A program made the position numbers and the translations under genes. Below are positions 1,001-35,865 of a stretch of 64,000 nt of DNA, one piece after another. The notes beneath the pieces are model-generated. The model was given only the letters and a program-made list of their open reading frames with translations. It did not search any database and had not been told where the DNA came from. Where the stretch lies: positions 434,001 to 498,000 of the forward strand of contig CAMJPB010000001.1 in NCBI GenBank assembly GCA_946407815.1, read 5' to 3'. This stretch comes from an uncultured Caryophanales bacterium (GTDB lineage Bacteria; Bacillota_I; Bacilli_A; RFN20; CAG-826). The first letter of the stretch is position 1; each line of letters begins with the position of its first letter.

Positions 1001-2830
1001 TTATTTTCTAAGTTTAAATATACATGCTCCAAAGGAAGCAAGTTTAATGGTAATTTTGTGAGGTCTACCATATGGACCATTTGGAGAAGTTTGACATGCT
1101 GCTCCATTATATTGATTTGCTCCGCTATAAATGTCTTTATCAGAGTTAAAGATTTCTTCATACCATCCTGGCTCTGTAACTGGGATTTCAATGAAAGCGT
1201 AGAAATTAGATGTCATGTTAAAGACAAATAAGAGCCTTTCATCTTCATTAAATCTTTCAAAAGCGAATACACTTTGATCGGAATTGTCCACCATTAACCA
1301 GTTATAGTTATTTGGATTGTATTCGTTTAAATACATTGCAGAATGATGTTTATAAATTTCATTTAAATCTCTAAACATTCTAGAAAGAGAATCATGCATT
1401 GGATATTGTTTTAAATTCCATGCTAAAGATTTAACTTCGTTCCATTCATCAAATGTACCAAGTTCGTTACCCATGAAGTTAAGTTTCTTACCTGGGTGAG
1501 CGTATTGGTAGGTTAAAAGATTTCTAAACTGCATAAACTTCTGGTTATAATCGCCCCAAAGCTTATTCATTAAAGTTCCTTTACCATGCACGACTTCGTC
1601 GTGAGAGAACGGAAGCATAAAGTTTTCATTAAAGTAGTACGCCATAGAGAATGTAAGTTTATTATGTTCGTACTTCTTATAAATTGGGTCTTTTGAGTAA
1701 TACTTTAAAGTATCGTTCATCCAACCTAAATCCCACTTATAGTCAAAACCAATTCCGTCTTCAGTTGTTGGTTTTGTAACTCTTGGGAAATCACTAGAGT
1801 CTTCTGCAATCATCATGACTGAACAATGTCTATCATGGATTTTACAGCATAATCTTTTTAAGAATTCTATGGCACCTTCATTTCTACCACGGTCTTTGTT
1901 ACCTTCATAGAAAAGCATATTACTAACAGCGTCGACTCTAATGCCGTCAATATGATATTCAGTTACGAAATAGTTCATTGCGGACATTAAGAATGATCTA
2001 ACTGGATCTTTACCTAAATCAAAATAGCTAGAACCCCAAGGAGAAACATTATATGGAGATGATTCAAATAAATATCTGCCATCAAAGTTCCTTAAGGCCC
2101 AATCATCATTAGCGAAGTGAACTGGAGCAAAATCTAAGATAACTCCAATACCTGCATGGTGAAGTTTATTCACTAAGCTCATTAATTGATGTGGATTTCC
2201 ATATCTAGAATCTACTGAATAGAAACCTGTAGCTTGATAACCCCATGATCCATCAAATGGGTGTTGGATTAATGGCATAAATTCAACGTGGGTGAATCCC
2301 ATACCTTTAAGGTAAGGCACTAATTTATCAGCAATTTCATCGTATGAGAAATATCTATCATTCTCTCCATGACCAATCCAAGAACCAACATGCATTTCAT
2401 AAATAGAACAAGCTTTATCAAAATTTCTTGTTCTTGTTTTCATCCATTCTTCATCACCCCAAGGGAAGCCCTCATAGTCGAAGAGTCTAGAACATGTATT
2501 TGGTCTTAGTTCAGAAAAGAATGCACATGGGTCTGCTTTATCTACATAAAAACCATCTGCATTTCTAAAATGATACTTGTAGCATTGATAGTTTACGAGA
2601 TGTGGGATAAATACTTCCCAAACACCTGAATCATCAACCTTAGTCATTTTATTAGCACCGACATCCCAGCCATTGAATTCTCCAATAACTGAAACATCTT
2701 CTGCTGCTGGGGCGTAAAGTCTAAATGTTACACCCTTAACTCGGCCCTTCTTCTCGAAGTGTGCGCCGAAGTATTTATACGAGTCAATTGTTTGACCGTA
2801 TAAGAAATCTAAAAGTAATCCGTATGCCAT
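1001..2830 (-). CDS. glgB: 1,4-alpha-glucan branching enzyme (GH13)
   Basis: Introduces alpha-1,6 branches in glycogen. The 609-aa protein has an N-terminal CBM48-like domain (about residues 15-115, with VSVIGEFNGWD) and a GH13 barrel. Catalytic motifs are visible: DGIRVDAVSNM (nucleophile Asp), MIAEDSS (acid Glu) and LPFSHDEVVHGKG (His-Asp). Length is normal for short GlgB forms. The first ATG in frame is used. It has no Shine-Dalgarno site and lies 9 bases after an extended -10 box. No glgC or glgA is seen nearby, so either they lie left of the window or branching acts on imported maltodextrin. It is transcribed toward glgP. Confidence 0.95.
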   Translation of the reverse strand: MAYGLLLDFLYGQTIDSYKYFGAHFEKKGRVKGVTFRLYAPAAEDVSVIGEFNGWDVGANKMTKVDDSGVWEVFIPHLVNYQCYKYHFRNADGFYVDKADPCAFFSELRPNTCSRLFDYEGFPWGDEEWMKTRTRNFDKACSIYEMHVGSWIGHGENDRYFSYDEIADKLVPYLKGMGFTHVEFMPLIQHPFDGSWGYQATGFYSVDSRYGNPHQLMSLVNKLHHAGIGVILDFAPVHFANDDWALRNFDGRYLFESSPYNVSPWGSSYFDLGKDPVRSFLMSAMNYFVTEYHIDGIRVDAVSNMLFYEGNKDRGRNEGAIEFLKRLCCKIHDRHCSVMMIAEDSSDFPRVTKPTTEDGIGFDYKWDLGWMNDTLKYYSKDPIYKKYEHNKLTFSMAYYFNENFMLPFSHDEVVHGKGTLMNKLWGDYNQKFMQFRNLLTYQYAHPGKKLNFMGNELGTFDEWNEVKSLAWNLKQYPMHDSLSRMFRDLNEIYKHHSAMYLNEYNPNNYNWLMVDNSDQSVFAFERFNEDERLLFVFNMTSNFYAFIEIPVTEPGWYEEIFNSDKDIYSGANQYNGAACQTSPNGPYGRPHKITIKLASFGACIFKLRK

Positions 2831-2914: not shown

Positions 2915-4267
2915 CTAAGAGTTCCAATTACAGATATACGTTGTCTCTGTGTCAGGAATTGTCCAGTCTCTATTTGAACGAGTTTCCCACTCGTCTGTAC
3001 CGCTCTTCCACTTAATTACAACTTTAAATGAAATTGACGACCCAGTTTCAAGAACTTTATCTAAAATCCAATTGTCACCAGTTGTCCAATTCATTGGGAT
3101 AAAATTATCCCAACCACCAATACCAGCGATATATAAGTCACCATTGCCGCCTGTACCATAATTACAAGTAAAATGAACTTGTGTATAACCGCTTTCAATT
3201 GCTCCACATCCATCTCTTGAACACTTATGATCAACATAGTTGTGACCTAAAGCTGCAATAGTTGGAACAGATGCAATCTCGTTGTAATTAGAATCAAAAA
3301 TATGAGTGCAACCACTGCAGGTGTAATATTGTGAATTTCCAGCTGTTGTGCATGTTGCAGCAATAGCAGGATGATTTACGTAATTATGAACATGAGCTTG
3401 AACATAACCACAAACATTGCAGACACCATTAACAAACGTGTGTGCTTCAGGCGTATCAGTAGCGCCACAATCATGGTCACATATTAACCAGTGATTTGTC
3501 GCATCACTTCCGTAATTATTAGTAAAACTATGCCCGGTTGCATTAATTACTACAGATGGCTTATCTGTAATCTCATTTTGAGCTGCACTATCAGAATAAT
3601 ATTTATCACAATGATCACATGAATAATAAAGTAAATTACCATTTTGAGTACAGGTTGCTGCTGAAGCAGCATGCTCTGTAAGATGTGTATGATCAATAAA
3701 TGTATTTTCACTTAAAATTTCTCCACAGATTCCACAATATTGTATTTCCCTTTTAACCGCGCAATCGATAGCGGTTGCAGCAGTAATAACAGAATATGAT
3801 GACTTAGCATCATGATTGTGGTTTATCCATTGACCAGTGGAAATCTTATTCTCACCCCAACCAGTTATTTCATATGTATCTTTAGTTAAATCAAAACTTA
3901 AATCGGCGGTTTTGTTCCACAAATTATCCCAGTCTATTGATGCTGTAGATGTAGGATCTCTAACAAAAACAACATTTTGGTATGTGATTTTGACACTAAA
4001 TTTATAAAAGCCATTTGTTTCGCAAGCTGTGAGCTTAACATCGTAATCGTTCCCGCCATTATAACAGTGAGCAAAATAAGTAGGATCATCAACATCCCAA
4101 ACACCAGCTTTTAAGTAAATTTCACGTGTCGGTATTTGTAATCCAATTTGAGATCCAATACGATTGGCATTATCAGTAATTGTATAACTAGCAAAAACAC
4201 CTCCAATAGATGAGGAAATAGATAATATTGAAGCAAATAATATTCCTATTTTTAATTTACTTTTCAT
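2915..4267 (-). CDS. Secreted starch-binding protein: SipW-type signal, Cys-rich repeats, C-terminal CBM20
   Basis: 450 aa with no catalytic domain recognised. Residues 1-35 form a SipW-type signal peptide ending in the VFASYTITDNANRIG region, almost the same as that of the protein encoded two genes upstream. Residues 48-140 form a beta-type module (VWDVDDPTYF ... TYEITGW) also seen in the protein at 27681-28928. Residues 170-350 hold about five Cys-x2-Cys modules of zinc-ribbon look (YSCDHCDKYY, YTCSGCTHIF, GVCNVCGY). The C-terminus (about 360-450) matches CBM20: VHFTCNYGTG, LYIAGIGGWDN and WETRSNRDW, the last recalling the family's WESGPNR. It overlaps the signal peptidase gene by 4 bases, so the protein and its probable processing enzyme are translationally coupled. 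Starch binding is inferred from CBM20. Confidence 0.8.
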   Translation of the reverse strand: MKSKLKIGILFASILSISSSIGGVFASYTITDNANRIGSQIGLQIPTREIYLKAGVWDVDDPTYFAHCYNGGNDYDVKLTACETNGFYKFSVKITYQNVVFVRDPTSTASIDWDNLWNKTADLSFDLTKDTYEITGWGENKISTGQWINHNHDAKSSYSVITAATAIDCAVKREIQYCGICGEILSENTFIDHTHLTEHAASAATCTQNGNLLYYSCDHCDKYYSDSAAQNEITDKPSVVINATGHSFTNNYGSDATNHWLICDHDCGATDTPEAHTFVNGVCNVCGYVQAHVHNYVNHPAIAATCTTAGNSQYYTCSGCTHIFDSNYNEIASVPTIAALGHNYVDHKCSRDGCGAIESGYTQVHFTCNYGTGGNGDLYIAGIGGWDNFIPMNWTTGDNWILDKVLETGSSISFKVVIKWKSGTDEWETRSNRDWTIPDTETTYICNWNS

Positions 4268-4974
4268 TTTGTTTTTTTACTTAACTTTTTAGATGAATCT
4301 TTGGTCTTTTTTTCTATTTTATTCTTAGATTTGGTTTGAAGAAGAAAAGACTGAGCGGATTCGTTTGAAATCTGCGCACTCTTTTCTTTTTCGGTCTTTT
4401 TAAGAATTATATATTGATAGACAATATAAATAACAATAATTGATACTTCTGCAGTAATGCCCCAAAAACTTGTAATATAACCAGCGAAATACCCTAAAAC
4501 AGGAATACTATAAATAACTTTTGATTGAATTTCGCTCTTTAAAAAAGTTCTTTGACCATCTTCTTCGCCCGGTTTTGCCGCATCAGCTCTAATCGTGTAA
4601 ACATCTTCGTTTCCATTAAACGAAACGTTAACTATTCGGTGTGAAGTAATTTTGTTACTATCTGGATTTAAAAATAAAACTATATCGCCAGCATTTAATT
4701 CTGTATTTGACTCAACTTTTATTGAAACAACCAATGCACCTTTTCTAATTTGGTTAGTCCAACCTTTTTCTTCATATTCTTGTCTAATAACCTCATTAGT
4801 TGTTGCCATTGATTTAGATAAAACAGCATCATAGCGTTTCCCAAAAAAATAAACTTGATTTCTCCTAAATCGAAGAAACAAGCCAAAAGCAGCAATAATA
4901 AAAACGATACCTACAAGTATCCAGGAAACAATATCCCAAACTTTTCTTTTATTAATTTTATTTTTCGTTCCCAT
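4264..4974 (-). CDS. sipW: SipW-like signal peptidase I
   Basis: 236-aa membrane serine protease of the ER-type/SipW signal peptidase group, which in Bacillus processes TasA-like exported proteins. Seen: one N-terminal membrane segment (about residues 14-34), the catalytic Ser55 in LSKSM, a His in place of the bacterial Lys (TSHRIV, His112), an Asp in the following block (IRADAAKPG, about 131), a second membrane segment (about 160-192) and a Lys/Ser-rich tail. It sits between two genes whose products carry matching SipW-type signals. A 12-pair hairpin lies between it and the upstream gene, and no clear Shine-Dalgarno site precedes the ATG, so it is probably made at lower level than its substrates. 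Family call is firm; the substrate link is inference. Confidence 0.87.
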   Translation of the reverse strand: MGTKNKINKRKVWDIVSWILVGIVFIIAAFGLFLRFRRNQVYFFGKRYDAVLSKSMATTNEVIRQEYEEKGWTNQIRKGALVVSIKVESNTELNAGDIVLFLNPDSNKITSHRIVNVSFNGNEDVYTIRADAAKPGEEDGQRTFLKSEIQSKVIYSIPVLGYFAGYITSFWGITAEVSIIVIYIVYQYIILKKTEKEKSAQISNESAQSFLLQTKSKNKIEKKTKDSSKKLSKKTK

Positions 4975-4981
4975 AAGGCGG

Positions 4982-5010
4982 AGTAGAGAGGAGATAAACT
5001 CCTCTCTACT
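4982..5010 (-). other. 12-bp intercistronic hairpin between the CBM26 protein gene and sipW
   Basis: AGTAGAGAGGAG and its exact complement flank a five-base loop (TTTAT in the RNA). There is no U run after it, so it is not a standard terminator; an RNA processing or stabilising element, or partial attenuator, is more likely. It lies 17 bases past the stop codon of the upstream gene. Confidence 0.65.
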
Positions 5011-5025
5011 TGTATTAGAAATTAA

Positions 5026-6291
5026 TTATGCGTGTGGAACAGCCCAAACTTCGCTATTAGCATTGAGGTAAATATCGTATGCTCCATCTGCCTCAATCAC
5101 AAAGTTTCCGCCACCTTGCGCATGATAATAAGTTGCACCATCATTTGCAATAACACAAAGTTGATCCCCAGCCTTGAGTGTGATATTTGAAAGTTTTCCT
5201 TTATCACCATGTTCAAGATTTTCGGTGCTCATAGCAAGATCGCTAACGAAACCAACGGTTGTATACCATTTATCAACTCCGTTGATAACACCAGTAACAT
5301 AGTACGCTGCTAATTCAACAGGTGCTGTTGCACTTGAAGTACAAGCATATTTGCCATCTTCACCAACGGCGCCACAGACATAGTATTGTTTACTATAATC
5401 AAGTGCAATGTCAGCTGTTTGATGTAAGACATGTTCTTGAGCGCTACTACTGTAATCTGAGAAGATAACTTTTCCAAACTTATCTTTACCCTGTTCGGAG
5501 GAACCGGCTAATTCAAAGCTATAAAGTCTTCCACCTTCAGACTTCATTTCAACACCAGGGAATGCGGCATTTTGGACACCATCTTTCCAAGCATAAACGT
5601 AAACTTTATCGCCAGTCCAACCAGATGCTGGTTTTTGGAAGAATACTTTAGTTGTTTCTGCGACTTGAGAATCATTTTGATTTGCGTTCCAGTCTAATTG
5701 TAAGTAAACAACTTGTGTACTAATTGTTGTATAAACAGGAGTTGCAGAATCAGATAATTTAACAAAAACACTGTATGTAGAACCGGCTGCGGTTCCTGTT
5801 GCAGCAGCATCAAAAGCATATACACCAGGTGTAGGTGGAATATGACCAATACGATCAGCTGCTTGTTGTTCTGCTGTCTTGCCTACCCAAGTTTCAAGAC
5901 TAACGTCTCCTGGGACAACATCAACTTCAAGAAAATCAATTAATTTGTTTGCAGGTTCAGTATCTCCATATTTAGTTAAATCCGTTAACTTCATATTGAG
6001 TGTGCCAGCATAGGTGCTAATATCGAGATTGTCAGCATCTTTACCAGAAGCCTTAAGGACGATATTACCCATTTTTGCAGTTGCACCTGCGCCAAGGTTT
6101 CCAACGTTAGCAATAGTGTTTTCGCCCCACTCTAATGTGATATTACCAATTTTGTCATCAGTAATTTCAGATGGTGAAATCTTTTTGCCAATTGGGTTAG
6201 CGTTATCGGTAATGACATAAGCTGCAAAAGTTCCGCCTACAAATAAAGCAGCAGCACCGAGAGACGCTAAGAGAAGACTTAATTTCTTCAT
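5026..6291 (-). CDS. Secreted SipW-type protein with starch-binding module CBM26
   Basis: 421 aa. The SipW-type signal MKKLSLLLASLG...GGTFAAYVITDNANPIG is followed by a TasA/camelysin-like beta region (about residues 40-205: NITLEWGENTIANVGN, then LNMKLTDLTKYGDTEPANK). Residues 210-315 match CBM26: KVFFQKPASGW, VYVYAWKDG, AAFPGVEM and KVIFSDYS. The C-terminal part (about 325-421: LKAGDQLCVIAND ... FVIEADGAYDIYLNAN) resembles SusE/F-like carbohydrate-binding modules. No catalytic domain is seen. It is first in the CBM26-sipW-CBM20 operon with its own strong promoter. I infer an abundant, perhaps polymeric, surface starch-binding protein; polymer formation is only suggested by the TasA-like context. 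Confidence 0.8.
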   Translation of the reverse strand: MKKLSLLLASLGAAALFVGGTFAAYVITDNANPIGKKISPSEITDDKIGNITLEWGENTIANVGNLGAGATAKMGNIVLKASGKDADNLDISTYAGTLNMKLTDLTKYGDTEPANKLIDFLEVDVVPGDVSLETWVGKTAEQQAADRIGHIPPTPGVYAFDAAATGTAAGSTYSVFVKLSDSATPVYTTISTQVVYLQLDWNANQNDSQVAETTKVFFQKPASGWTGDKVYVYAWKDGVQNAAFPGVEMKSEGGRLYSFELAGSSEQGKDKFGKVIFSDYSSSAQEHVLHQTADIALDYSKQYYVCGAVGEDGKYACTSSATAPVELAAYYVTGVINGVDKWYTTVGFVSDLAMSTENLEHGDKGKLSNITLKAGDQLCVIANDGATYYHAQGGGNFVIEADGAYDIYLNANSEVWAVPHA

Positions 6292-6337: not shown

Positions 6338-6366
6338 ATTATAAATATTGATGTATGCGCTTTCAA
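6338..6366 (-). promoter_or_regulatory. Sigma-A type promoter of the SipW/CBM operon
   Basis: Minus strand: TTGAAA (6366-6361), 17-base spacer, TATAAT (6343-6338). This is one of the best promoters in the window. The expected RNA start is near 6331, giving a leader of about 40 bases with the hairpin at 6307-6323. The stretch from 6367 to 6487 is AT-rich and holds nothing else I can name. Confidence 0.8.
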
Positions 6367-6531: not shown

Positions 6532-9500
6532 TTAAGCTGCAGGATTATATTTCCATTGGCCAACTTCATAGTGGCCACTTCCATCTGTTGAACCAGTTAA
6601 AAAGAATGCATTATTCTCGCCTGTAAGGCTTGATAAGGCAATATCAACTGTTTGCTTATCAGAGTAGTCTTTGCTGCCATTTAAGATAAATGAATCATAT
6701 GATGTTGTATCAATTAAGACACGGTAGACGTCTTGACCATATTCGTTTTGTCCGACCCATTTTGTACTTTCTCCTGGCCAGCCAACTTGTGAATCGTGAG
6801 TTGAACTATTGAAGATATAAACCTTAGTTACACTCCAATATTCGCCATTACTAATATAAACGATTTGCTTACTAGTTAATGCGCCATCAGTGTAATTCCA
6901 TGTGCCACACTCAATCTTACTATTTTCACCACTAATTCTTCCGCTGAAGTAGAAAGCAGATCCATCAACAGCACTTGAAATATCAATGCTTAGTGTTTCA
7001 TTTGCATCGCCTTCTCCACCATTTGTGAAGATGATTCTATCATAAGAGGAAATATCAACAGTGTAAGAGAAGATTGTATCGTTATCATCGTTTACACCAA
7101 CGTATGTCATATCTTCTCCTGGCCATGCAGCTTTACTAGCATCAGTTGAGGAATTAAAGACATATGCTTTTGGAGATTCAAAGCCGCCCCAGTTAGCTGT
7201 TAAGTATAACGTAACTATGTTAGGGGTTACTGTTTCGTCTTTCCATTGAGCGTAGAAAGTGACGTCTTCTGTGACTGCATAAGTATCACCAACATCAAGA
7301 AGATCACCAGCATTATTTGCCTTCCAACCTTCAAATTCTTTTCCGCTTGGAGCAGTAAAGCCAGAGCCTGGAAGTATGTAATTTCCACTTTGATTTGGAA
7401 TATCTGCCATCGTGTTACTTCCACCATTTGCATCAAATGAAACGGTATAACCACTTACTGAAGATGTATAGGTGATAAAGACGTTCTTACCTTCGTCATC
7501 TGAAGCGTTTTTCTTAACGTAGAAGTTATAAGTACCAGCAACGCTTGCTTTTAAGTTTTGTGGATCGGTTGTTCCTTGAACAATCTTGTCAGTACTATAA
7601 GTTTCGTTGAAGTTTTCATAATGTCTCCAATCGCTTGAACTGACACAGATAACAAATTCAGCGCCTGCTTCTAATTCAAGATTATTATCATACTTGTATT
7701 GAGCGTTATTATCTGGATCTTCGACAAGTTGAGCAAATGCCCATCCACCGGCTTTTTCATATTGAATATAAGGTGGTTCGATATCTGCCTCATAAACGGT
7801 ACTTGAATCAAATAATGACCAAACACCTTCATATTTTCCATCAACCATATTGGTTGGTTTAAACATATCTTTACCACTTTCAAGAGCTAAATCAATTGTT
7901 TGAGAATTAATCTCAGCCCAGTCAAAGTTTTCTTGTTTAGAGTTTGCAATCACAACATAGTTGTGGTCTGTTGGAATTGCGACTTCATAAACAATATTTT
8001 GACCAGCAACTTTGCTCATCTTTGATGTAGCAGCAGGAGTTCCACCTTCACCTTGTTTCCAAGAATGAACAAATGGAATTGCTGGGCTACCAGCGTCAAG
8101 CTTATTATTTGCATTTAAGTAAATAGTTCTACTTACACCAGCGGCCTCATCTCTAACGTGGACATTGATTAAAACTTCGTCCATACGAGCATCGTGAATT
8201 ACGACTGTGGAATCACCAACTGCTTTTGCAGTGATTAAACCAGTGTCACTTACCTCGATTGGAGTACTACTAGTGACACCATAGCTAACTTGACCAATGT
8301 AATCGTGTAAGACGATTTGATATGTATCATCAACACCCATTGTAAGTTCGCTTAATTCGGCTGACATATGTGGGACTTTGGTAATGTATAAAGCATCCCA
8401 AATGGAACCGTCTTCATTCTTATATGCTTTGGCATATAAATCATACCAACCAGTGTTATCAACAACGATGTTACATTGTGGATCACTATCGCTTGCTAAA
8501 TGCATGTCTCCTGATTCGAAAGCACCACCTTGTTCAATGTGGTAACCTCTACTTGCACCCTCATCAAAGTCTTCCCATACTGGGACCCAGTATTCTGAGC
8601 CGATGAAATATCTAAATTCATCACCAGAGACAAACTTAATTGTGCCTTTATACTCTTCTAATGAAGAGGTGTCGTTAACACGATTTGTGAAGTGATATGC
8701 ATACTTAACACTTCCCCATGAATCTTTACCATCTTTATGCACTGATTCGCCAGTATTGAACAAGTTATTACCAACGATATATCGTTGACCATAAGCAAAT
8801 TCAGCATTTCTCTCGTTAACATTAACTGTTACTGAGTTGGATGCACCATTTACGTTAGTTGCAGTAACTGTAACTGTACCAGTTGCATCTTCGTCAGCTG
8901 CGGATAACGTAACGCTACTTCCACTAGTTGCGCTTAATGTCGCAACACCTTCTGGAGCGATTGTCCAATTAATTGTATCGTCAGTTACGTTAGCAGGAAC
9001 TAATGTCGCTGTAAGTGTTAATGTTTCATCATTATAGAACGATGTACCACCACTAATCGATAAGGCTGTTGAGACGAAATCAACGTTAACGTTGATATTA
9101 TCAGTAACATCAGCTCTACCAACTTGTGAAATGATAATAGAAATATTAGCATTACCTGGACCGACAGCACTAATTAAACCATCATTATTTACTGTTGCAA
9201 CGCTTTCATCGCTTGATGCAAAGCTAATAGTTGCTTTTGATGGATTAGTATAACCTGCGCGATCTGTTTCAACTGTCCATGCTAATTGTTCAGTTAATGA
9301 ATAATCACCATGGTTTGCTAATGTAATTGGATCATTTGTCAAATTCACACTAGTTGCATGGACTTCAAATACATTGACTACAGAGTCACTTGATTCAAAA
9401 TCACCAACTTTAGCATAAATTCTAGCATCGCCAGCGCTAACACCAGTGACAACACCTGTAACTTCATCAACTGTAGCGATTTCAGGTGTTCTAGAATAGA

Positions 9501-10278
9501 ATTTAACGCCTTTTTTGACTAAGTCAGAAGCATTTTCTGGTGAAACAGAGGCTTCGACTGAAATATTTTTGTTAATTTCGACTTCATTAGGGCCGCTAAG
9601 AGTGATATTTGTGACTGGAATAGTCTCAATAACAAGTGGGTAATCTTTGGCGCTAGATTCGCCTAAAAATTCACTAAAAACTCTTAATGTAGCTGTACCA
9701 TTACTACCATAGGTAGAAACTGCACCATCTTCATCAACTGAGGCGACTCCTTCAGGAGAAGCATCAACAATTTGATAAGTTAAATTAGGATAGGTTGTAT
9801 CAATAGGTTCATAACTAACCTCAAACTCATATTTTTCATTCCACTCAAGTCGAGCAGGAACATCTAAAGTAAAGTTAGTTAAAGGAACGTTAACCTTAAC
9901 TGAGAGTTCTGTAGCAGTAAATGTGCTTTCTAAGGAATCAACAATTATAGTTGTCTCACCGGCACCCATAGCAGTTAAGACACCATTTTCAACTTTTGCG
10001 ACACTTTCGTCGCTACTTGTCCAAGTTAAGGAATTATCAGTAGCACCACGAGGAGAAATTACATAAGAATAAGTATGTGTTTCGCCTTTATTAAGCTCAA
10101 TACTTTCCTCACCATCTAAGAATTCAATCTCAGTGGCTGGCATTACAAAGTCTTCCCATTTAGTGTCGATTGTAAAATCTAATTCCGTAAACGAGTCTTT
10201 TAATGCCGTTGGGTCATCACAACCACTAAGCACTAAACCTAAAAATACAAAAGGAGCTAATAATCTCATCTTCTTCAT
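6532..10278 (-). CDS. Giant Big2/CBM26 starch-binding lipoprotein (1248 aa)
   Basis: Lipoprotein signal with lipobox LSGC (Cys19). About five Big2 Ig-like domains follow (residues about 45-480, each with the WTSSDESVAKV ... GVLTAMGAGETTI pattern). Then come a module ending NTGWYDLYAKAY (about 490-635), a Big2-like unit (about 640-720), an IYLNANNKL...WKQGEGG module, a FVICVSSSDWRHY...YNFYVKKN module and a Listeria-Bacteroides repeat (VSFDANGG ... EGWKANNAGD ... FYAQW, about 925-995). Two CBM26 modules with AWPGEDM and GWPGEST end the protein. No enzyme domain is visible. It is last gene of the amylase-pullulanase operon, right before a strong terminator. I infer a long surface stalk that holds starch with its outer end near the cell-bound enzymes. 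Confidence 0.85.
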   Translation of the reverse strand: MKKMRLLAPFVFLGLVLSGCDDPTALKDSFTELDFTIDTKWEDFVMPATEIEFLDGEESIELNKGETHTYSYVISPRGATDNSLTWTSSDESVAKVENGVLTAMGAGETTIIVDSLESTFTATELSVKVNVPLTNFTLDVPARLEWNEKYEFEVSYEPIDTTYPNLTYQIVDASPEGVASVDEDGAVSTYGSNGTATLRVFSEFLGESSAKDYPLVIETIPVTNITLSGPNEVEINKNISVEASVSPENASDLVKKGVKFYSRTPEIATVDEVTGVVTGVSAGDARIYAKVGDFESSDSVVNVFEVHATSVNLTNDPITLANHGDYSLTEQLAWTVETDRAGYTNPSKATISFASSDESVATVNNDGLISAVGPGNANISIIISQVGRADVTDNINVNVDFVSTALSISGGTSFYNDETLTLTATLVPANVTDDTINWTIAPEGVATLSATSGSSVTLSAADEDATGTVTVTATNVNGASNSVTVNVNERNAEFAYGQRYIVGNNLFNTGESVHKDGKDSWGSVKYAYHFTNRVNDTSSLEEYKGTIKFVSGDEFRYFIGSEYWVPVWEDFDEGASRGYHIEQGGAFESGDMHLASDSDPQCNIVVDNTGWYDLYAKAYKNEDGSIWDALYITKVPHMSAELSELTMGVDDTYQIVLHDYIGQVSYGVTSSTPIEVSDTGLITAKAVGDSTVVIHDARMDEVLINVHVRDEAAGVSRTIYLNANNKLDAGSPAIPFVHSWKQGEGGTPAATSKMSKVAGQNIVYEVAIPTDHNYVVIANSKQENFDWAEINSQTIDLALESGKDMFKPTNMVDGKYEGVWSLFDSSTVYEADIEPPYIQYEKAGGWAFAQLVEDPDNNAQYKYDNNLELEAGAEFVICVSSSDWRHYENFNETYSTDKIVQGTTDPQNLKASVAGTYNFYVKKNASDDEGKNVFITYTSSVSGYTVSFDANGGSNTMADIPNQSGNYILPGSGFTAPSGKEFEGWKANNAGDLLDVGDTYAVTEDVTFYAQWKDETVTPNIVTLYLTANWGGFESPKAYVFNSSTDASKAAWPGEDMTYVGVNDDNDTIFSYTVDISSYDRIIFTNGGEGDANETLSIDISSAVDGSAFYFSGRISGENSKIECGTWNYTDGALTSKQIVYISNGEYWSVTKVYIFNSSTHDSQVGWPGESTKWVGQNEYGQDVYRVLIDTTSYDSFILNGSKDYSDKQTVDIALSSLTGENNAFFLTGSTDGSGHYEVGQWKYNPAA

Positions 10279-10280
10279 TA

Positions 10281-11246
10281 TTACATTCCTCCTTGGACAT
10301 CAGTCCAAATACCATAAATGTATAAGAATGATCTACCTGTTGCTAAATAAGTATTTAGATCAACTAAGTCATCTTTTGAGTCAATAATTGGATGAGTACT
10401 CCATCCAGCGAAATATGGGAAGGCTGGAATTGGAGCTGTAGTTGGGTTAGATGGAACCTTACCGCTTTCAGCGATAGGTCTATCTTCATACCACCAGAAT
10501 TTAGCAAGAAGTTTCTTACCAGTTACATCATCTTCATCAACATTGTTATAGTCGATAAAGAAGTAAATTCTAACTGTCATTTCATCACTTGGTGGTAAAT
10601 CATCGCCTGCATCCTCTAAAATAGAGATATTACAATTTGCACTAACCCCATTGGCGGTTGCAGTAATAACTACATCACCTTCTGCTTTTGCAAGAACAAA
10701 TCCGGTTTGATCTACGCTAGCGATATCATCATTAGAGCTAGACCAAGTAACAGTCGCTTGTTCTGATGTAGAAGCAGTTAACTTAAAGCTATCATTGATT
10801 GCTAAATTTAAACTACTTTCATTTAATGAAATAGTGAATGTAGTAGGAGTTGGTGGGTTATCTGGATCAGTTGGAGTAACTGGAACTAAAGATTCACCAC
10901 TTGGAACATTAATTGAGCAAGCAGCTGACTTAAATCCAGCAATAAATGTAATAGAAGCATAACCTGGTTTTAAAGCTGTAACCATACCATTTGCATCAAC
11001 TGAAGCAATCTTAGGGTTAGAGCTTCTCCACTCCTTATAGCAATCGACTTCTTTATCATCTTTAAATTTAATAGTCGCGTTAAGTTGAAGCATTTCTTCC
11101 TCTTCAAGTTTAACGTAGCTTTGATCGAGTTCTACAGAAGTTACGCATAAATCATTAGTAAATGACTTAACTTCTTCTTTATTACATCCAGCAAGGCCAA
11201 TTAATGCAAGGATGGCTGTGAATAAGACTAATCTATTCTTTTTCAT
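10281..11246 (-). CDS. Big2-domain lipoprotein with Listeria-Bacteroides-like C-terminus
   Basis: 321 aa. The start chosen is the ATG at 11246 (MKKNRLVLF), because a GGAGGG ribosome site precedes it at good spacing and a lipobox (LAGC) follows; an upstream in-frame ATG at 11303 would spoil the signal peptide. Two Big2 domains are seen (about 35-125, LQLNATIKFKDD ... SSNPKIASVDANG; and 130-215, SSSNDDIASVDQTG), then a C-terminal part with FWWYEDRPI and PYFAGWSTHP. No catalytic or CBM motif is recognised. It lies 17 bases after the pullulanase gene and 2 bases before the CBM26 giant, so it is part of the operon. Role unknown; it may be a surface scaffold. Confidence 0.75.
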   Translation of the reverse strand: MKKNRLVLFTAILALIGLAGCNKEEVKSFTNDLCVTSVELDQSYVKLEEEEMLQLNATIKFKDDKEVDCYKEWRSSNPKIASVDANGMVTALKPGYASITFIAGFKSAACSINVPSGESLVPVTPTDPDNPPTPTTFTISLNESSLNLAINDSFKLTASTSEQATVTWSSSNDDIASVDQTGFVLAKAEGDVVITATANGVSANCNISILEDAGDDLPPSDEMTVRIYFFIDYNNVDEDDVTGKKLLAKFWWYEDRPIAESGKVPSNPTTAPIPAFPYFAGWSTHPIIDSKDDLVDLNTYLATGRSFLYIYGIWTDVQGGM

Positions 11247-11263
11247 ATCTTTCGCCCTCCTAT

Positions 11264-14200
11264 TTACCATGCGATGAAGGTGTAGGATGGAGCTCCTACC
11301 CAACCATCATTTAGACCATAATTGGTGCCAGAATCATAGAACTTGGTGAAATCACCAGTTGGTAAATATGAAACTTGGCCACGGCATGAAACAGCAACAT
11401 GAATTCCACCTGGATTCCACATACCAAACATACCTTCATAGCCGGCATCACTTGTCCATTTACTAAAACCAGCGCTTTCCCATGAACCAAAGTCGTATTT
11501 TGTAATTTCCTTACGTTTTGCGACCATGTCTTTCCATGTGTCCATTCTGTTATAGGTTAAAGTATTACCAATATGGATTTTACGACCCCATTTAAATGAG
11601 TTAACGCTATCAGGAAGTTTATATGAGTTATGAGACACCATTTCGTTAGTGCCATACATTCTAACTTCACCAGTAGCTAAAGCAGTAGCTGTAAATGTTG
11701 GATCATAATTCTCGAAATCTGGGAACGGTCTAACATAAGCTTCATCTCCACCTTTAACAAGTTCGTTATATTCAGGAGTTGCTAAAATTCCTTGCTCTGG
11801 TTTAGCAACATCAGAAATGGTCTTTGTACGGTAGATTTCTTCACCACCTTGGATGAAAGCAACACCGTTACTTGCCATAACTAAACCGTGTGCTGAAATA
11901 CTAGCGGCAATTAAATCGTCAATTGCTGGTTCTCCACCATTAACTGGACGTCCGCTATTATCGTATTTTGCGCTTGTTCTATTTTCATAGCCTTTTGTAG
12001 CTAATGCATATCTAAATTGATCCCAAACTGTGTAGTTATCATGACAGCTAACATAGTTAATACATTGATTTGGATTACCACCCTTACCAGAGTGTAAACC
12101 TCTAAACATATCGTAAATGGCATCGATTTTGCCTGCGCCATCATCCTTACCTTGGCTAACATAGCCCCAGTTTGGATAAGAGTTATTTGTACCATAACCA
12201 TGGTCGTTTCCACCTCTAATTGAGTCACGGCCAGCATCGTTAAAGGCACCAACGTATCCGCCTGCTGCATCTGGATAAAGCATTGAGTAGACATTTGCAG
12301 AGTCACTACCTGCTGTTCCAGCATCGCCATTATAACCAGCGATAGAAGTCCAACCTTCACCATAGATATAAATATCTGGGTCAATGTTGTTTAGTGCTTT
12401 TCTTGCTGCGGCCATAGTTCCTGTATCAATTAATCCCATTAAGTCGAAACGGAAGCCCTTAATCTTATATTCGCTAGCCCACCATTTTAATGAATCAACA
12501 ATGTATTTTGACATCATAGGGGCTTCGCTCTTAACTTCGTTAGAACAGCCAGAACCGTCTGTGTAGTTCCATTCTGCATCATAACGGAAGTAATATTTTG
12601 GCATTAATTTTGTAAAGCATGAAGATGAGGCGCTGGAAACGTGGTTATAAACAACGTCCATAATAACACGAGTATGATTTGCATTTTCAGCAAAGTTCTT
12701 AATGAGTTGTTTATACTCAACGATTCTACAAAGTGGATCATCTGGATCTGTGGAATAACCACCTTCAACACAGTTGTAGTTAAGTGGGTTATAACCCCAG
12801 TTAAACTTCATCTTTTCATCTCTTTCATCATCATCGTGATCAAAAACAGGTAAAAGTTGAACAGCACTGACACCTAATTCTTCAATGTGATCAAAACCAG
12901 TTTTAACTGTATAATTTTGACCTTGGAATGTCTCAGAATATGTGGTTCCTTTTTCAGAAAATGCTGCATAAGTACCACGTTTAGAAGTTCCTGTCCAAGT
13001 TTCATCCATTGTTAAATCACGAATGTGAGCTTCATAGATGGAGAGTTCATTTGGAGTTTTAATATCATAGCCACTAACACCATCCCATTTAGCAGGAATA
13101 TTATTCCAACCTTCTGGGTTAGCGTTGGAGGCTGTATTATCATAGACATAGGCACGTAAACCGTTGACACCACATGCTTTAGCATATGGATCCATAGCTT
13201 CGATGTTTGTTCCGCCTGGATTTGTAGCCTTAAATGTGTAGTATTTTCCAGCTAAATCACCAGTAACGGTTAATTCCCAAACGCCATAGCCTGTGTAATA
13301 CATAGGAGAAGCTACACCGGCATCGGTTCCGCCTAATGATTTTGGTCGACCATTATCGTAAAGATTTAAAATCATATTTGCAGAAATTGGTGACCAAACT
13401 TTGAAGGTTGTTTGTGTTTTTGAATACTTAAAGCCTAAATCATCCCCAGTGTAGTTATAGTACTTGGAGAATGTGGCAGTTTTATATAAATACTCAAAAC
13501 TTGCAAAGATCTTTCTAACAGGTTTATTGTCAAAACCAGGATAAACAGATTCAATTAAATATTGAATGTTAATCTTTGCAGTGTAATTAAATTTAATATC
13601 AAATTCACTTGTTGTAGGGGTTCCTTCCTTAAACAAATAGAATTCTTTGTTGTTAATTTGAGCAGTTTGACTTGAATTTAAGTAAGTCTTATCAAATGCA
13701 TAAACCTTATACCAAAGTGGTACAAGAGTTGGGTCACTAGAAACACAGTGAATTGTTTTCCAGTCAATAAACTTAGCGGTAGCAATCTTTGGAATCTTTG
13801 TTTCTTCTTCAGAAGTACAGAATTCAATTGAACTACCTTCGCCAGGAATTGTCCAAAGTTCAAGAGTTAAAGATGCATCGATATTTGCTTGATAATCAGC
13901 ATATTTTAACTCAACGTCTTCAGATTGTCCTGACCAAGTACCAGCTTTCTTAATAATGAAGAATAAGCTTGGCATATTAGCGTATTCAGTGATAACACTG
14001 AAATCTAAAGTAATTTTCATACTTTCGGTATCAGCTTCATCAGGTTTTCTTTCAACACCATCGTAGCCGGTAACCCAAGTATAAAATCTTCTTGATAAAC
14101 AATCTTTATCATCGTTAAAGTAGTGAAGAATTACTTTATTTGGAAGTTTTAATTCATCGTCTCCAGCACGAGTTATTGCCTTCATTTTGTCAAGTTCAAC

Positions 14201-14371
14201 AACTGCGTCTTTTGAGTCTACATAACTAATTGGGTCAGCTTCAATTTCTTCTTTTTCACTAATTTCATCAACAAGTGAAATAGCTCCTTTTTGTTTATAG
14301 AAGAAATTTGGAAGTGCAAGAGCAGTTACACCAAGTGAGATTAAGCCAATTTTAAGAAATCTTTTTTCCAT
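11264..14371 (-). CDS. pulA: Type I pullulanase (GH13), secreted or membrane-tethered
   Basis: Hydrolyses alpha-1,6 links of pullulan and branched starch. About 1035 aa. Signal anchor: FLKIGLISLGVTALALPNFF without a lipobox, so it may stay tethered. Domains: CBM41-like (about 80-190, HYFNDDKDC ... FFIIKKAGTWSG), CBM48-like (about 325-420, TTFKVWSPISANMILNLYDNG) and the GH13 barrel with the type I signature FNWGYNPLNYN. Catalytic motifs are IKGFRFDLMG (Asp), YIYGEGWTS (Glu) and YVSCHDNYTVWD (His-Asp). Two ATGs lie 6 bases apart (14377 and 14371); the AAGAGG site is 8 bases from the second and too close to the first, so 14371 is preferred. It is flanked by starch-binding lipoproteins in the same operon. 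Confidence 0.93.
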   Translation of the reverse strand: MEKRFLKIGLISLGVTALALPNFFYKQKGAISLVDEISEKEEIEADPISYVDSKDAVVELDKMKAITRAGDDELKLPNKVILHYFNDDKDCLSRRFYTWVTGYDGVERKPDEADTESMKITLDFSVITEYANMPSLFFIIKKAGTWSGQSEDVELKYADYQANIDASLTLELWTIPGEGSSIEFCTSEEETKIPKIATAKFIDWKTIHCVSSDPTLVPLWYKVYAFDKTYLNSSQTAQINNKEFYLFKEGTPTTSEFDIKFNYTAKINIQYLIESVYPGFDNKPVRKIFASFEYLYKTATFSKYYNYTGDDLGFKYSKTQTTFKVWSPISANMILNLYDNGRPKSLGGTDAGVASPMYYTGYGVWELTVTGDLAGKYYTFKATNPGGTNIEAMDPYAKACGVNGLRAYVYDNTASNANPEGWNNIPAKWDGVSGYDIKTPNELSIYEAHIRDLTMDETWTGTSKRGTYAAFSEKGTTYSETFQGQNYTVKTGFDHIEELGVSAVQLLPVFDHDDDERDEKMKFNWGYNPLNYNCVEGGYSTDPDDPLCRIVEYKQLIKNFAENANHTRVIMDVVYNHVSSASSSCFTKLMPKYYFRYDAEWNYTDGSGCSNEVKSEAPMMSKYIVDSLKWWASEYKIKGFRFDLMGLIDTGTMAAARKALNNIDPDIYIYGEGWTSIAGYNGDAGTAGSDSANVYSMLYPDAAGGYVGAFNDAGRDSIRGGNDHGYGTNNSYPNWGYVSQGKDDGAGKIDAIYDMFRGLHSGKGGNPNQCINYVSCHDNYTVWDQFRYALATKGYENRTSAKYDNSGRPVNGGEPAIDDLIAASISAHGLVMASNGVAFIQGGEEIYRTKTISDVAKPEQGILATPEYNELVKGGDEAYVRPFPDFENYDPTFTATALATGEVRMYGTNEMVSHNSYKLPDSVNSFKWGRKIHIGNTLTYNRMDTWKDMVAKRKEITKYDFGSWESAGFSKWTSDAGYEGMFGMWNPGGIHVAVSCRGQVSYLPTGDFTKFYDSGTNYGLNDGWVGAPSYTFIAW

Positions 14372-14393
14372 AGACATTACCTCTTAGACCTAA

Positions 14394-15248
14394 TTAATGG
14401 AGTTCAAAGTAAATGGTGTCTGCACCAAATAATAATTGGATATAAACATCAGCAGTAAATGTTTGCTTAGCTACATAGCTAGAAGCATTAACAGTAATAT
14501 AATTACTGAATGTTGGACTTGCTTCTGTTCCACCAAATGAATATGGATTTGGAGAGACAACCCATTTTGCTCCGTTTGAGAAGTCATATAATGAGAATTC
14601 GCTGCCTTCAGAAATACTTACTGAATAAGCAACGTATTCTTGTTTTCCATAAGATTCACCGTTATAAGTAGCTTGAACGGTACGACCATCACTAAAGTAG
14701 AAGCCATAACCAGTTGTAACGACAGTGCCGCCACCACCTTGTGATCCGCCACCGCCGGAGCTACCTCCTCCGCCGCCAGAGCTTCCGCCACCACCAGTTG
14801 GGCCATCAAAAATAGCAAATACTTGAGTGCCACTAGTTGCAGGGACTGTTTCAAGTTTATCTGGGTAAACTTTATCGTTATATTGATACCAGCCTCTAAA
14901 TGTAACGCCATAAAGAGTTGAACTTACAGTTTCAGCGGCTGGTAAAGGTGCACCTGGTTCACTTTCCCAAATAATACAATGTTCATAGAATTTAGGTTCG
15001 TAGTCACCTCCCATAATCTTTTCACCATTGATTTCAACACGACCATAAGGCGACATCATTAAATAAGTGATGTGAGAAACGCTACCTAAACGAGTATGAA
15101 CTGTAGGAAGTTTTGTTTCGTGAGTATAAGTTACACTTATATGATTTTCTTCAACATTTGAAGTAGGATTTAAAGCTTGGCTTGTTCCTTTGTTAGCACA
15201 GCCTGCTAAGAAGATAAGAGAAACGAGAGTTAATAATTGCTTTTTCAT
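14394..15248 (-). CDS. Lipoprotein with Gly/Ser linker and carbohydrate-binding-like C-terminus
   Basis: 284 aa. Signal with lipobox LAGC. The N-terminal domain (about 30-145) ends in a Listeria-Bacteroides-like repeat (YGVTFRGWYQYNDKVYP ... TQVFAIFDG). A flexible linker of Gly and Ser runs from about 150 to 178. The C-terminal domain (about 180-284: YGFYFSDGRTVQATYNG ... FTADVYIQLLFGADTIYFE) resembles the modules in the 1248-aa and CBM26 proteins. The gene lies between the amylase and pullulanase genes, with spacings of about 15-20 bases. It may be a starch-binding accessory; binding is inferred from context and the shared module. Confidence 0.7.
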   Translation of the reverse strand: MKKQLLTLVSLIFLAGCANKGTSQALNPTSNVEENHISVTYTHETKLPTVHTRLGSVSHITYLMMSPYGRVEINGEKIMGGDYEPKFYEHCIIWESEPGAPLPAAETVSSTLYGVTFRGWYQYNDKVYPDKLETVPATSGTQVFAIFDGPTGGGGSSGGGGGSSGGGGSQGGGGTVVTTGYGFYFSDGRTVQATYNGESYGKQEYVAYSVSISEGSEFSLYDFSNGAKWVVSPNPYSFGGTEASPTFSNYITVNASSYVAKQTFTADVYIQLLFGADTIYFELH

Positions 15249-15262
15249 GATTTTTTACCTCC

Positions 15263-18200
15263 TTAGTTCTTCTTGAGTACAACAAAGCCATGAGCTGGCA
15301 CACTTGTTGCACTGCCTCCGTTAGAACATCCTAGTAATGAATATCCCATCCAACCGATTCCGACATTGCTATCAGTGTTATTAACAAAGACTGCAACTTC
15401 ACGGGTTCCATCACTAATTTTGAAGTTTGAAGTGCCTTCAATACCATTGATTGAACCAGTTCCACTTATAGAACCATAAGTTGGATATGCATCGTTATTC
15501 TTAACAGCACAAACTGACTTAAAGTAATTAAGCATTGAGTTTGCATCTGCTTTTTGTTGAGAAACTGTTGGAAGAGATTGATTGTAGTTATCCCAAAGGA
15601 CTTCAATTCCACCAAAGGTGTAATTGACAACACCATCACTACCTTTTGTAGCGCCCCATCTCATAGGTTGACGATACCATCTATCAACGTTATTTCCATG
15701 GTCGTTATAAATGTAGCCGTGGCTATCTGCGACTGAGTCTTCAACGTTACCAGATAGGCCGATTTCATCACCATAATAAATCCAGCTAACACCAGGATTT
15801 AAGATAGTCATTGCGGCATAATATTTAGCCATATTATTGGCGTAATTTTTATTGGATGCATTAACTTCAGCGTGGTGTTTGACATTACCTGGGTTACCTG
15901 CGTATGCTTGCTCAACATCAGAGCCATGAGCGGCTGCGTGGTTAAGAAGTCTTGCGACGTCGTGGTTAGATGTGTATGCACCATTAATGAAGTCTTTACG
16001 GTATTTACCGTATTCTTGTTGTGAAACTTCCATGGAGTTTGCCATAGCGTCTTCTTTTCTTTCGTTAAGGTGATAGTAAGTTGAGAAGTCGAATTGAGAA
16101 TCAATTGACTCATAGAATGGAGCCATTCTAGCATCCCAACCATCAAAGTTTTCACCAACTAAGAAACAATTTGGATAACTTGCTTTAAGAGAACCGGCAA
16201 ATTGTTTCCAGAATAAGACGTTCATATCCATATCGTATGAATAATCGTTTGGAACATCATCCCATTTACCCATTTCTTCATTCCAATAATGCTTTTGACC
16301 AACGTCATAAGTAACTGTATGATTTCCAATTTGACCTTTAAGAGATGGTGAAAGTTCACCTAATAGGTAAATATGTTTAATAGCGTCAAGTCTAAATCCA
16401 TCAAGACCAAAGCTTAACCAATATTTACACATATCAGTCATATAGTCTCTTGTAGCTTGACAGTTGTAATTAAGTTCAGCCATACCACTACCGAATTTAC
16501 CGAAATAGTAATAATCGCTAGTGCCATCTTTGAACCATTGATTTTCACAATCTGGAGATGAGACTGCAACTTCTTTATAATTTGCTAAAGTTGTTGTAGT
16601 ACTTGTTGAATTTTGATCCCAGACCATGACTTTATCAGTTTTATATTTCCATAAGTACATGTCACGGTACTTAATTTCTTTTCCATTTATTACTTCAGTA
16701 ACAGCTGCTTCAGATTTCTTGTATAAAACGTTAGATTTAGAAGTATGGTTAATAACCATATCCATTAAAACTTTCATACCAAGCTTATGAGCTTTATAAA
16801 TTAATTCTTGATAATCTTCGATTGTTCCAAATCTTGAGTCAATCTTATAGTAATCAGTTACGTCATAGCCATGGTAGCTATTTGATTCTTGAATTGGAGT
16901 AAGCCATAAGACCTCTGCTCCAACATCGTTCTTGATATAATCAAGTTTATTAATAATACCTCTTAAATCACCAAATCCATCGCCATCACTATCAGCGTAT
17001 GATGGAACAAAGATTTGATAACCAACACCTGGACGATCTTGTTTAAATGAAGTTGATGTTGAAACACCAGATGAATAATCGTCTCTAATTAAAAGTGATT
17101 GATCATCAATACTTCTATAATCACCGGTTGTATCGGTCAATGTTGGATTATTAACAACTTGTTTTCCACTTGCAGTTGTGAAGTTAGAGACGTTACCTTC
17201 GACGCAATAGACGTGAAGATAACTGTTTTCGCCTTCAGTCATGTATTTCTTACCAAGTTTCTTAATGAAGGTTTCGCCAGAACCATCAGATGTCCACATA
17301 GATTCACCAGTCATCTTTGTTTGGTCGACAATTAAGAAGCCGAGGTCAGTCTTGTTGAAAACTGTACTTTCCCATCCACCTTCAGAGATAAGAGGTGCTT
17401 CGTGACCGGTCTTACCACCTTTAATGGATGCTGCTTTTAAGTTAACATCGATAATTTGTCCAAATTCATCTTTATATGGTTCAGAGTTACCACCGCTTAC
17501 TTGAGCATTTGTCATATAGCCTAAAGATTGAATATTTTCAGGTTTAATTGGAGTTGATGCACTAAAGTGGCTTGCATTTGCACCCCATAATGAACCTTCT
17601 AAGCTATTTGGGAAGGATTGCCAAATCCAAAGAGCCCAGTTGTTATAATTGTCATCACTTGTTCTAAGGTAATGGAAATAAATGTGACCTTTTTGCTTAA
17701 GTGAATCAGGCATATTTGTGTCATAGTCACTAGAAGAACCACTTGCTGCAACATGGACTAAACATGTAGCAGTTTTTGTGTCAGTTCCATCACCAACTGT
17801 GACAGAAATTGTTGTATCACCACTACTTAAGGCAGTAACTAAACCAGTTTGGCTAACTGATGCGACGGCTGGATCACTTGATTGCCATCTTGTGAATTCA
17901 ATGTCACCACTCTTAGTAGCATTAAGTTGTAATGTTTCGTTAACTTCCATTGATTTGGAGTTAATGTTTAATGAGACAGATAAAACTGTAGTGTCTCCAA
18001 CAGCTGTAACAGATAATTTACATCTATCAGAGAATCTACCTAAGGAGGCAATAATATCGGTTTCGCCTGGACCTAAGACGTTAATAGTTGCGCTTGTACC
18101 TCTCGAGGTAACTGTCGCGACAGACTCAACTGTAGAGCTCCAGTTAACATTTAAAGAGGTTGTCATTGGGATAGTTGATACATGAGCAACTAAACCAAAT

Positions 18201-18649
18201 GAGTTGTTTGAACTATTTGGATCATATGTAAATGATTTATTTTGTTCAGAAATATTTAAACTTAGAACTTCAACTTGTGTTCCACTTGAAACACTAACAC
18301 GGCAGCTAGCGGCAGCGACATTACCAACTAAAGCAGTAACTGTTGCTTCACCACTAGATAAACCTGTAACAGCAAGTTCTGCAGTTTTTGAATCAGAAAT
18401 TGAAATAACTTGTTGGTTTGTGTTAACCCATGTAACCTCTAAGGCACTTGTATCAACTTCAACATTTTCGTGAGGTTGAATATCAAGAACTAAATTAGAG
18501 GTTTCGCCAATTGATAAGTTGAGTGATGAAAGTAAATCAACATCAAAATTATCAGTGGCTGCTTCAGGAATAACGTCCACAAGATTCATGTTACACGCAC
18601 ATAGCGCCATGCACGCGATGACGAAAGGAAATAAAAATCTCTTTGCCAT
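15263..18649 (-). CDS. Extracellular alpha-amylase/neopullulanase lipoprotein with Big2 and CBM41 domains
   Basis: 1128-aa surface enzyme cutting alpha-1,4 links of starch. The lipobox is LCAC (Cys19). Three Big2 domains span about 35-305 (for example WQSSDPAVASVSQTGLVTALSSG). A CBM41-like pullulanase-associated domain (about 320-500, IYFHYLRTSDDNYNNWALWIW) precedes a GH13 domain from about 540. Its motifs are GYQIFVPSYADSDGDGFGDL, MVINHTSKS, GLDGFRLDAIKH (Asp), FLVGENFDGW (Glu) and YTSNHDVARL (His-Asp). A DxDGDGFGD loop suggests a calcium site. It is first gene after a strong promoter and is followed by the pullulanase and binding lipoproteins. Exact product specificity cannot be told from sequence. 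Confidence 0.92.
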   Translation of the reverse strand: MAKRFLFPFVIACMALCACNMNLVDVIPEAATDNFDVDLLSSLNLSIGETSNLVLDIQPHENVEVDTSALEVTWVNTNQQVISISDSKTAELAVTGLSSGEATVTALVGNVAAASCRVSVSSGTQVEVLSLNISEQNKSFTYDPNSSNNSFGLVAHVSTIPMTTSLNVNWSSTVESVATVTSRGTSATINVLGPGETDIIASLGRFSDRCKLSVTAVGDTTVLSVSLNINSKSMEVNETLQLNATKSGDIEFTRWQSSDPAVASVSQTGLVTALSSGDTTISVTVGDGTDTKTATCLVHVAASGSSSDYDTNMPDSLKQKGHIYFHYLRTSDDNYNNWALWIWQSFPNSLEGSLWGANASHFSASTPIKPENIQSLGYMTNAQVSGGNSEPYKDEFGQIIDVNLKAASIKGGKTGHEAPLISEGGWESTVFNKTDLGFLIVDQTKMTGESMWTSDGSGETFIKKLGKKYMTEGENSYLHVYCVEGNVSNFTTASGKQVVNNPTLTDTTGDYRSIDDQSLLIRDDYSSGVSTSTSFKQDRPGVGYQIFVPSYADSDGDGFGDLRGIINKLDYIKNDVGAEVLWLTPIQESNSYHGYDVTDYYKIDSRFGTIEDYQELIYKAHKLGMKVLMDMVINHTSKSNVLYKKSEAAVTEVINGKEIKYRDMYLWKYKTDKVMVWDQNSTSTTTTLANYKEVAVSSPDCENQWFKDGTSDYYYFGKFGSGMAELNYNCQATRDYMTDMCKYWLSFGLDGFRLDAIKHIYLLGELSPSLKGQIGNHTVTYDVGQKHYWNEEMGKWDDVPNDYSYDMDMNVLFWKQFAGSLKASYPNCFLVGENFDGWDARMAPFYESIDSQFDFSTYYHLNERKEDAMANSMEVSQQEYGKYRKDFINGAYTSNHDVARLLNHAAAHGSDVEQAYAGNPGNVKHHAEVNASNKNYANNMAKYYAAMTILNPGVSWIYYGDEIGLSGNVEDSVADSHGYIYNDHGNNVDRWYRQPMRWGATKGSDGVVNYTFGGIEVLWDNYNQSLPTVSQQKADANSMLNYFKSVCAVKNNDAYPTYGSISGTGSINGIEGTSNFKISDGTREVAVFVNNTDSNVGIGWMGYSLLGCSNGGSATSVPAHGFVVLKKN

Positions 18650-18685
18650 AAGAATTCTCCTTTTAAACCGATACTATACTATATT

Positions 18686-18714
18686 AGTATAAACGTTCTT
18701 CTCGCACACGTCAA
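18686..18714 (-). promoter_or_regulatory. Sigma-A type promoter of the amylase operon
   Basis: Minus strand: TTGACG (18714-18709), 17-base spacer, TATACT (18691-18686). The ribosome site AAAGGAGAATTCTT precedes the ATG at 18649. The -35 box lies inside an inverted repeat (18703-18722). Confidence 0.8.
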
Positions 18715-18722
18715 CGCGTGCG
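18703..18722. promoter_or_regulatory. Candidate operator: inverted repeat over the amylase -35 box
   Basis: CGCACACG and CGCGTGCG flank TCAA; seven of eight positions pair. It is GC-rich in a very AT-rich setting. Its position over the -35 box suggests a repressor site, and LacI/MalR-type regulators often control such operons, but no regulator gene is in the window. It could also form an RNA hairpin in the upstream transcript; it lacks a U run. Confidence 0.45.
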
Positions 18723-18725
18723 TGA

Positions 18726-18754
18726 TAAAAAAATCTGAGCAAAATCATACAGAT
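18726..18754 (-). terminator. Weak terminator candidate after the maltose transporter operon
   Basis: On the minus strand a five-pair ATCTG/CAGAT stem spanning the last gene's stop codon is followed by a run of seven or more T. The short stem makes this weak, but it is the only such signal between this operon and the amylase promoter. Confidence 0.35.
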
Positions 18755-20213: not shown

Positions 20214-20214
20214 A

Positions 20215-22776: not shown

Positions 22777-22790
22777 AATTCTTCCTCCTA

Positions 22791-35846: not shown

Positions 35847-35865
35847 ATACATGAGGAAACCATAT

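Follow-up and report, generated by a model that had tools for sequence, protein, structure and literature searches.

Why should the gene of a SipW-type signal peptidase lie between two genes for starch-binding proteins, and would the two proteins, once exported, assemble with each other or simply be released? The locus that raises this question occupies 2915-6291 of the window (i.e. the whole 64,000-nucleotide stretch of DNA that was analysed, itself part of a 737 kb assembly that is ~45% complete), where the ORF list gives, in order of transcription on the minus strand, c1 (a CBM26 protein), sipW and c2 (a CBM20 protein). The three reading frames reported in a preliminary description of this DNA are all present on that strand, sipW does lie between the two starch-binding clients, and the 4-base coupling mentioned there is an overlap of sipW and c2 (ATGA).

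Layout of the locus and its surroundings

The product of c1 (5026..6291, minus strand; 421 aa, predicted major subunit from the ORF call and a CBM26 match) consists of a signal peptide, a donor-strand-like mature N-terminus, a predicted beta-sandwich, a CBM26 module and a C-terminal domain, all encoded on the minus strand. The predicted signal peptide (6223..6291) comprises 23 aa and ends in GGTFA, the cleavage site being placed from the resemblance of this end to A-x-A and from comparison with TasA. Mature residues 1-16, AYVITDNANPIGKKIS (6175..6222), form the segment shared with c2 and the proposed donor strand; they open the N-terminal beta-sandwich (jelly-roll-like) domain of the mature protein (5671..6222), which was delimited by a structure model and fold comparison. 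The starch-binding module (Pfam PF16738, residues 216-286; 5434..5646) scores 40.3 bits against a cut-off of 28.1 (E 3.6e-10), and the C-terminal domain appears SusE/F-like by way of a Pfam SusF_SusE match in the L037 homologue. On the same strand, c2 (2915..4267; 450 aa, predicted minor subunit from the ORF call and a CBM20 match) encodes a signal peptide, a c1-like mature N-terminus (residues 1-16, SYTITDNANRIGSQIG, 4142..4189, from the alignment at the predicted cut), a possible CBM26-like stretch (residues 71-140 align weakly with the CBM26 part of c1, E 0.012), Cys/His-rich repeats and a CBM20 (PF00686, residues 362-443; 2939..3184) with an E-value of 3.9e-6, above the curated cut-off.

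Upstream of c1 lies a sigma-70-like candidate promoter (TTGAAA-17-TATAAT; 6338..6366, minus strand), which agrees with the consensus at 11 of 12 positions and is the best of 13 in a scan whose total is about that of shuffled sequence. By eye, a clear Shine-Dalgarno sequence precedes c1, with none that is clear near the starts of sipW and c2.

The locus is surrounded by starch genes. Downstream on the minus strand are glgB (1001..2830) and, after it, glgP (2-958), both named from sequence and synteny, and on the other side the stretch 6532..25177 (minus strand; ORF list, Pfam and family models) holds genes for a lipoprotein with Big_2 and CBM26, a Big_2 lipoprotein-like protein, a pullulanase and an amylase-like lipoprotein, as well as minus-strand MalK/G/F-like transporter genes, beyond which a MalE-like gene follows (25190-26980). 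The amylase and Mal names are based on sequence and phmmer synteny. The MalK-like ATPase (20215-22776, minus strand; 853 aa) has a long, charged, coiled-coil-like C-terminal extension, and its homologue in L093 measures 851 aa. An exported protein encoded at 27681-29006 (minus strand), for which the Pfam scan gave no match, ends in a membrane segment and a basic tail (FFFIKKRKETN), a type of tail that two proteins of L092 also have. Further along, two neighbouring ORFs at 35851-36719 (plus strand), by eye nucleotidyltransferase-like and HEPN-like, recall MntA/HepT toxin-antitoxin pairs, and the ORF at 34598-35563 (plus strand) has the appearance of an ORF6N-type protein fused to a phospholipase-D-like part.

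The shared N-terminus and the predicted fold of c1

The N-termini of c1 and c2 are alike over 36 residues (blastp E 5e-7), and the back-translated motif, searched for elsewhere as the preliminary description had proposed, occurs in the 737 kb assembly only at c1 and c2, with no match anywhere in the assembly for the reversed pattern used as a control. Since the E-value is low and the motif unique to two sites, the similarity exceeds chance. The near-identical signal that had been described is therefore real as a similarity, but it lies mostly in the mature N-terminus and not in the signal peptide: identity between the two clients amounts to 35% over residues -20 to -1, 62% over mature residues 1-16 and 5% over mature residues 17-36. 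The corresponding values (last 20 residues of the signal, mature 1-16, mature 17-36) are 30, 81 and 5% for the clients of L036 and 35, 75 and 20% for those of L037, identity past residue 17 being 0-20% over the three loci. In TapA a mature N-terminus nearly identical to that of the major subunit is joined to an unrelated body, and c2 shows the same relation to c1 (62% versus 5%).

All nine aligned clients have hydrophobic residues at positions 2, 4, 11 and 15 of the mature segment, and seven have one at position 13, an alternation that would suit a beta strand with one buried face; position 6 is Asp and position 8 Ala throughout. The motif is poorly kept in the third client of L096 (19-38% identity). 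It is known that the donor strand of TasA is its N-terminal strand, in the region of residues 28-38 (PMC9674648), and that the mature N-termini of TapA and TasA agree (AFHDI/AFNDI; PMC10151520). SipW-dependent signal peptides of the TIGR04088 type, found on assorted proteins, resemble the segment in its position around the cleavage site, but the window's clients gave no match to that model at E up to 10, whereas a client of L057, a relative from the same family, passes its cut-off.

A model of full-length c1 built with three sequences was poor (pLDDT 58), its best part being jelly-roll-like, while residues 24-212 (mature 1-189) modelled with twelve relatives gave a beta-sandwich with a pLDDT of 83.7 and a pTM of 0.81. 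When this domain was compared by VIA-align, the TasA fibre (8aur) ranked 9th of 994 chains (Z 6.4, 139 residues, 3.8 Å), slightly below Bacteroides sialidase domains, with all matches at Z < 8, a range in which (as with Foldseek E > 0.001) a match falls under the level of kinship and may reflect a mere common arrangement. The alignment with 8aur is co-linear (model 24-189 to TasA 40-238) and is the longest at rmsd < 4 in the VIA-align list; other matches among the top 50 are cannulae, FimA, CFA/I and PapG. Foldseek placed the archaeal bundling pilus 7ueg first when queried with the full-length model (E 0.008) and a FimA variant first when queried with the domain alone (E 0.03), both on the same side of that threshold. 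The matches to viral capsid proteins and FimA were attributed to the shared beta-sandwich and not read as kinship.

Sequence comparison does not lead to TasA. The TasA/camelysin HMMs (NF046066, PF12389) have no match in c1, although one L036 homologue gives a weak one with NF046066 (E 0.084); hhalign of c1 with TasA-type relatives matched the signal peptide only; and a PDB profile search with the c1 domain returned no TasA, its sole match being CFA/I subunit E (E 0.3). Because the profiles fail to reach TasA and the fold scores all stay under Z 8, c1 is called TasA-like in its working (judging from the model, it probably works like TasA), and membership of the TasA family is not claimed.

The peptidase, the hairpin and the recurrence of the arrangement

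The sipW gene (4264..4974, minus strand; 236 aa) encodes a SipW-type (Ser-His) signal peptidase with Ser55, His112 (in place of Lys) and Asp131, which in the alignment are invariant across ten homologues. Its matches to NF046067 (E 6e-10, 38.9 bits) and TIGR02228 (E 2e-7, 31.3 bits) remain under the curated cut-offs of 190 and 51.85, for which reason it is classed, by sequence, as SipW-like within the broader Ser-His family and not as an equivalog of Bacillus SipW. The 737 kb assembly yielded no other SipW, and the same genome encodes an ordinary SPase I (TIGR02227, 91 bits). In the SipW homologues of L036, L037 and L096 (8540-9607 in the last) the His and Asp boxes are separated by a large insertion, as aligned for L036 and L037 and judged from length for L096. 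A CBM26-like C-terminal tail considered for the L036 SipW was dropped, being unsupported by Pfam and by a local CBM26 profile.

Searched with a c1-domain profile, 5 of 279 genomes of the order, counting that of the window, have the family, always beside sipW; of 395 genomes sampled across the class, it turned up in that of the window alone. The client-sipW-client arrangement thus recurs in four more genomes (L036, L037, L089 and L096); L036 has a third client, and in L096 two sipW genes alternate with three clients. In each of these genomes, CBM26 is joined to the c1 domain in one client or more. All the SipWs concerned, including those of the genome from another family, group in a single clade (support 98/97). 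Starch enzymes or transporters like those of the window lie around three of the four other loci (L036 with L093, L037 with L092, and L096), with one weaker amylase-like neighbour at L089. A single-protein scan of genome contigs gave one uncultured Ruminococcus contig, matching the CBM26 part only, and a scan of viral contigs found no relative of c1.

Between c1 and sipW is a gap of 51 nt containing an RNA hairpin with a 12-bp stem (4982..5010, minus strand), the folding energy of which is lower than expected both with flanks (MFE z -4.3) and for the gap alone (z -6.8). The equivalent gaps of the other c1-type loci contain strong hairpins of unrelated sequence. In the set of SipW loci studied, a folding energy of -15 kcal/mol or below is reached by 12 of the 14 gaps (30-110 nt) that precede sipW and by 18 of the 67 remaining co-directional gaps (Fisher p 6e-5, an optimistic value because the controls are unmatched for position within the operon and the loci are related). 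Since the hairpin of the window has no T run, and is accordingly absent from the listing of intrinsic terminators in the window, several roles are possible, and it may act in attenuation, processing or mRNA protection. In Clostridium perfringens a terminator with readthrough is predicted 3' of bsaA.

Assembly or export

Taken as a dedicated system, the locus would work as follows. Both clients would be exported by Sec, after which SipW, translationally coupled to c2, would cut them directly before (A/S)Y-x-ITDNAN-x-IG. The mature N-terminus thus freed would fit, as a donor strand, into the groove in the beta-sandwich of the following c1 molecule, by which c1 would polymerise into a fibre displaying CBM26 modules, and c2, carrying the shared strand on its unrelated CBM20 body (as TapA does relative to TasA), would start or end that fibre. 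From its position 3' of c1, the hairpin would keep c1 in excess over SipW and c2 and so set the stoichiometry, and the coat, which we infer to lie at the cell surface and to bind starch, would keep the polymer at the cell while the pullulanase, the amylase and the maltodextrin transporter act on it.

These steps do not deserve equal confidence. The proposal that SipW is devoted to starch binders gains from the four further genomes, the single SipW clade, the starch context and the separate SPase I, and dedicated SipW export of starch-binding proteins is very probable. For the fibre-like starch coat, also proposed earlier, the donor-strand position of the shared segment, its strand alternation and the weak likeness of the c1 model to TasA and pilus subunits are in favour, while no sequence model ties c1 to TasA; a TasA/TapA-like donor-strand fibre whose subunits carry starch-binding modules is somewhat favoured. 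The fullest version, a self-assembling starch-capturing appendage of uncultured Gram-positive-lineage bacteria that is built as a donor-strand fibre with neither sortase nor cohesin-dockerin and has its subunit ratios set by a hairpin, seems evenly poised between right and wrong.

It could also be that SipW merely cleaves two secreted starch binders, with the shared mature N-terminus as its recognition site. A long recognition site could equally explain the shared segment, which does adjoin the cut, and export of this kind would account for the peptidase, the clients, their arrangement and the starch context as well; the fibre is itself inferred, no anchoring motif was seen in c1 or c2, and c1 has no sequence link to TasA. 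Yet the clients agree more closely after the cut than before it, and the agreement continues, with the alternation of a beta strand, as far as residue 16, so that the peptidase would need to read some 16 mature residues, and the c1 domain is predicted to be a beta-sandwich weakly resembling pilus and TasA subunits. Export without a fibre is therefore possible rather than probable, and the main reason for preferring assembly is that the shared segment is placed as the donor strand of TasA and TapA. That the ordinary SPase I processes the clients, the SipW homologue acting elsewhere or not at all, would fit the presence of that enzyme in the genome and the residues at -3 and -1 (TFA, VFA), which suit it too, but sipW lies between clients at every locus in five genomes, the SipW lineage has the same restricted occurrence as the client lineage, and Ser, His and Asp are retained. 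Moreover, SipW cleaves both TasA and TapA in Bacillus subtilis (PMC9674648), and C. perfringens cells without SipW retain BsaA, which makes processing by SPase I most improbable.

The nearest solved structures to the CBM26 of c1 are those of Sas20 and Sas6 (Z 9.0 with domain 1 of Ruminococcus bromii Sas20) and its nearest profile is R. bromii Amy16, which might point to cell-surface display as in the amylosome of that organism. Both systems would involve extracellular starch binding of the CBM26 type (predicted here), but Sas20 and Sas6 are held through cohesin-dockerin contacts, whereas a Pfam scan of c1, c2 and three exported proteins encoded nearby gave neither dockerin nor cohesin, and the similarity is confined to the CBM26 part, so an amylosome-like display is highly unlikely. 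The Sas20 paper makes no mention of SipW.

The preferred reading, that of a donor-strand fibre, has its closest parallel in tapA-sipW-tasA of B. subtilis (TasA fibre, TapA initiator). There, too, the SipW gene lies between a beta-sandwich subunit (a predicted fold here) and a second client, the two clients have nearly identical mature N-termini, and the minor client gene overlaps sipW (PMC10151520). The order differs, being minor-sipW-major in B. subtilis and major-sipW-minor in the window, as do the CBM26 and CBM20 modules, the starch cluster and the lack of a TasA HMM match. A V-set Ig fold is a further trait of TapA. In sipW-bsaA of C. perfringens, another SipW system that makes fibres, BsaA is secreted in a SipW-dependent manner and polymerises, as is proposed for c1, and a terminator or hairpin is predicted 3' of the subunit gene in both; BsaA differs in being a pellicle biofilm protein with sipW first and no starch-binding module reported.

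In open-access papers, nothing relevant was found on SipW with starch or a carbohydrate-binding module, nor any earlier report of a SipW system with starch-binding clients. TasA-like fibres are known as biofilm scaffolds. If c1 does assemble, its CBM26 subunits would turn such a fibre into a feeding device, i.e. a further bacterial way of holding starch beyond amylosomes and Sus-type complexes, and would offer a ready-made polymer scaffold for the display of binding modules. A simple prediction is that mature c1 polymerises and requires its first 12 residues to do so.

Such a function may also help to account for the variety of SipW systems in this order. The SipWs of L040, L053 and others make up a second clade; they have single-domain clients with a similar LEWG-type motif and adjoin glgB/glgP in two genomes. 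Another type of SipW operon (L058, L059, L061, L069 and L070) encodes SipW after a number of small clients that bear a SipW-type signal, followed by further genes including one for an ABC-type ATPase, with a hairpin ahead of sipW in L059, L061, L069 and L070, and the SipW loci of L055 and L057 have clients of the canonical type.
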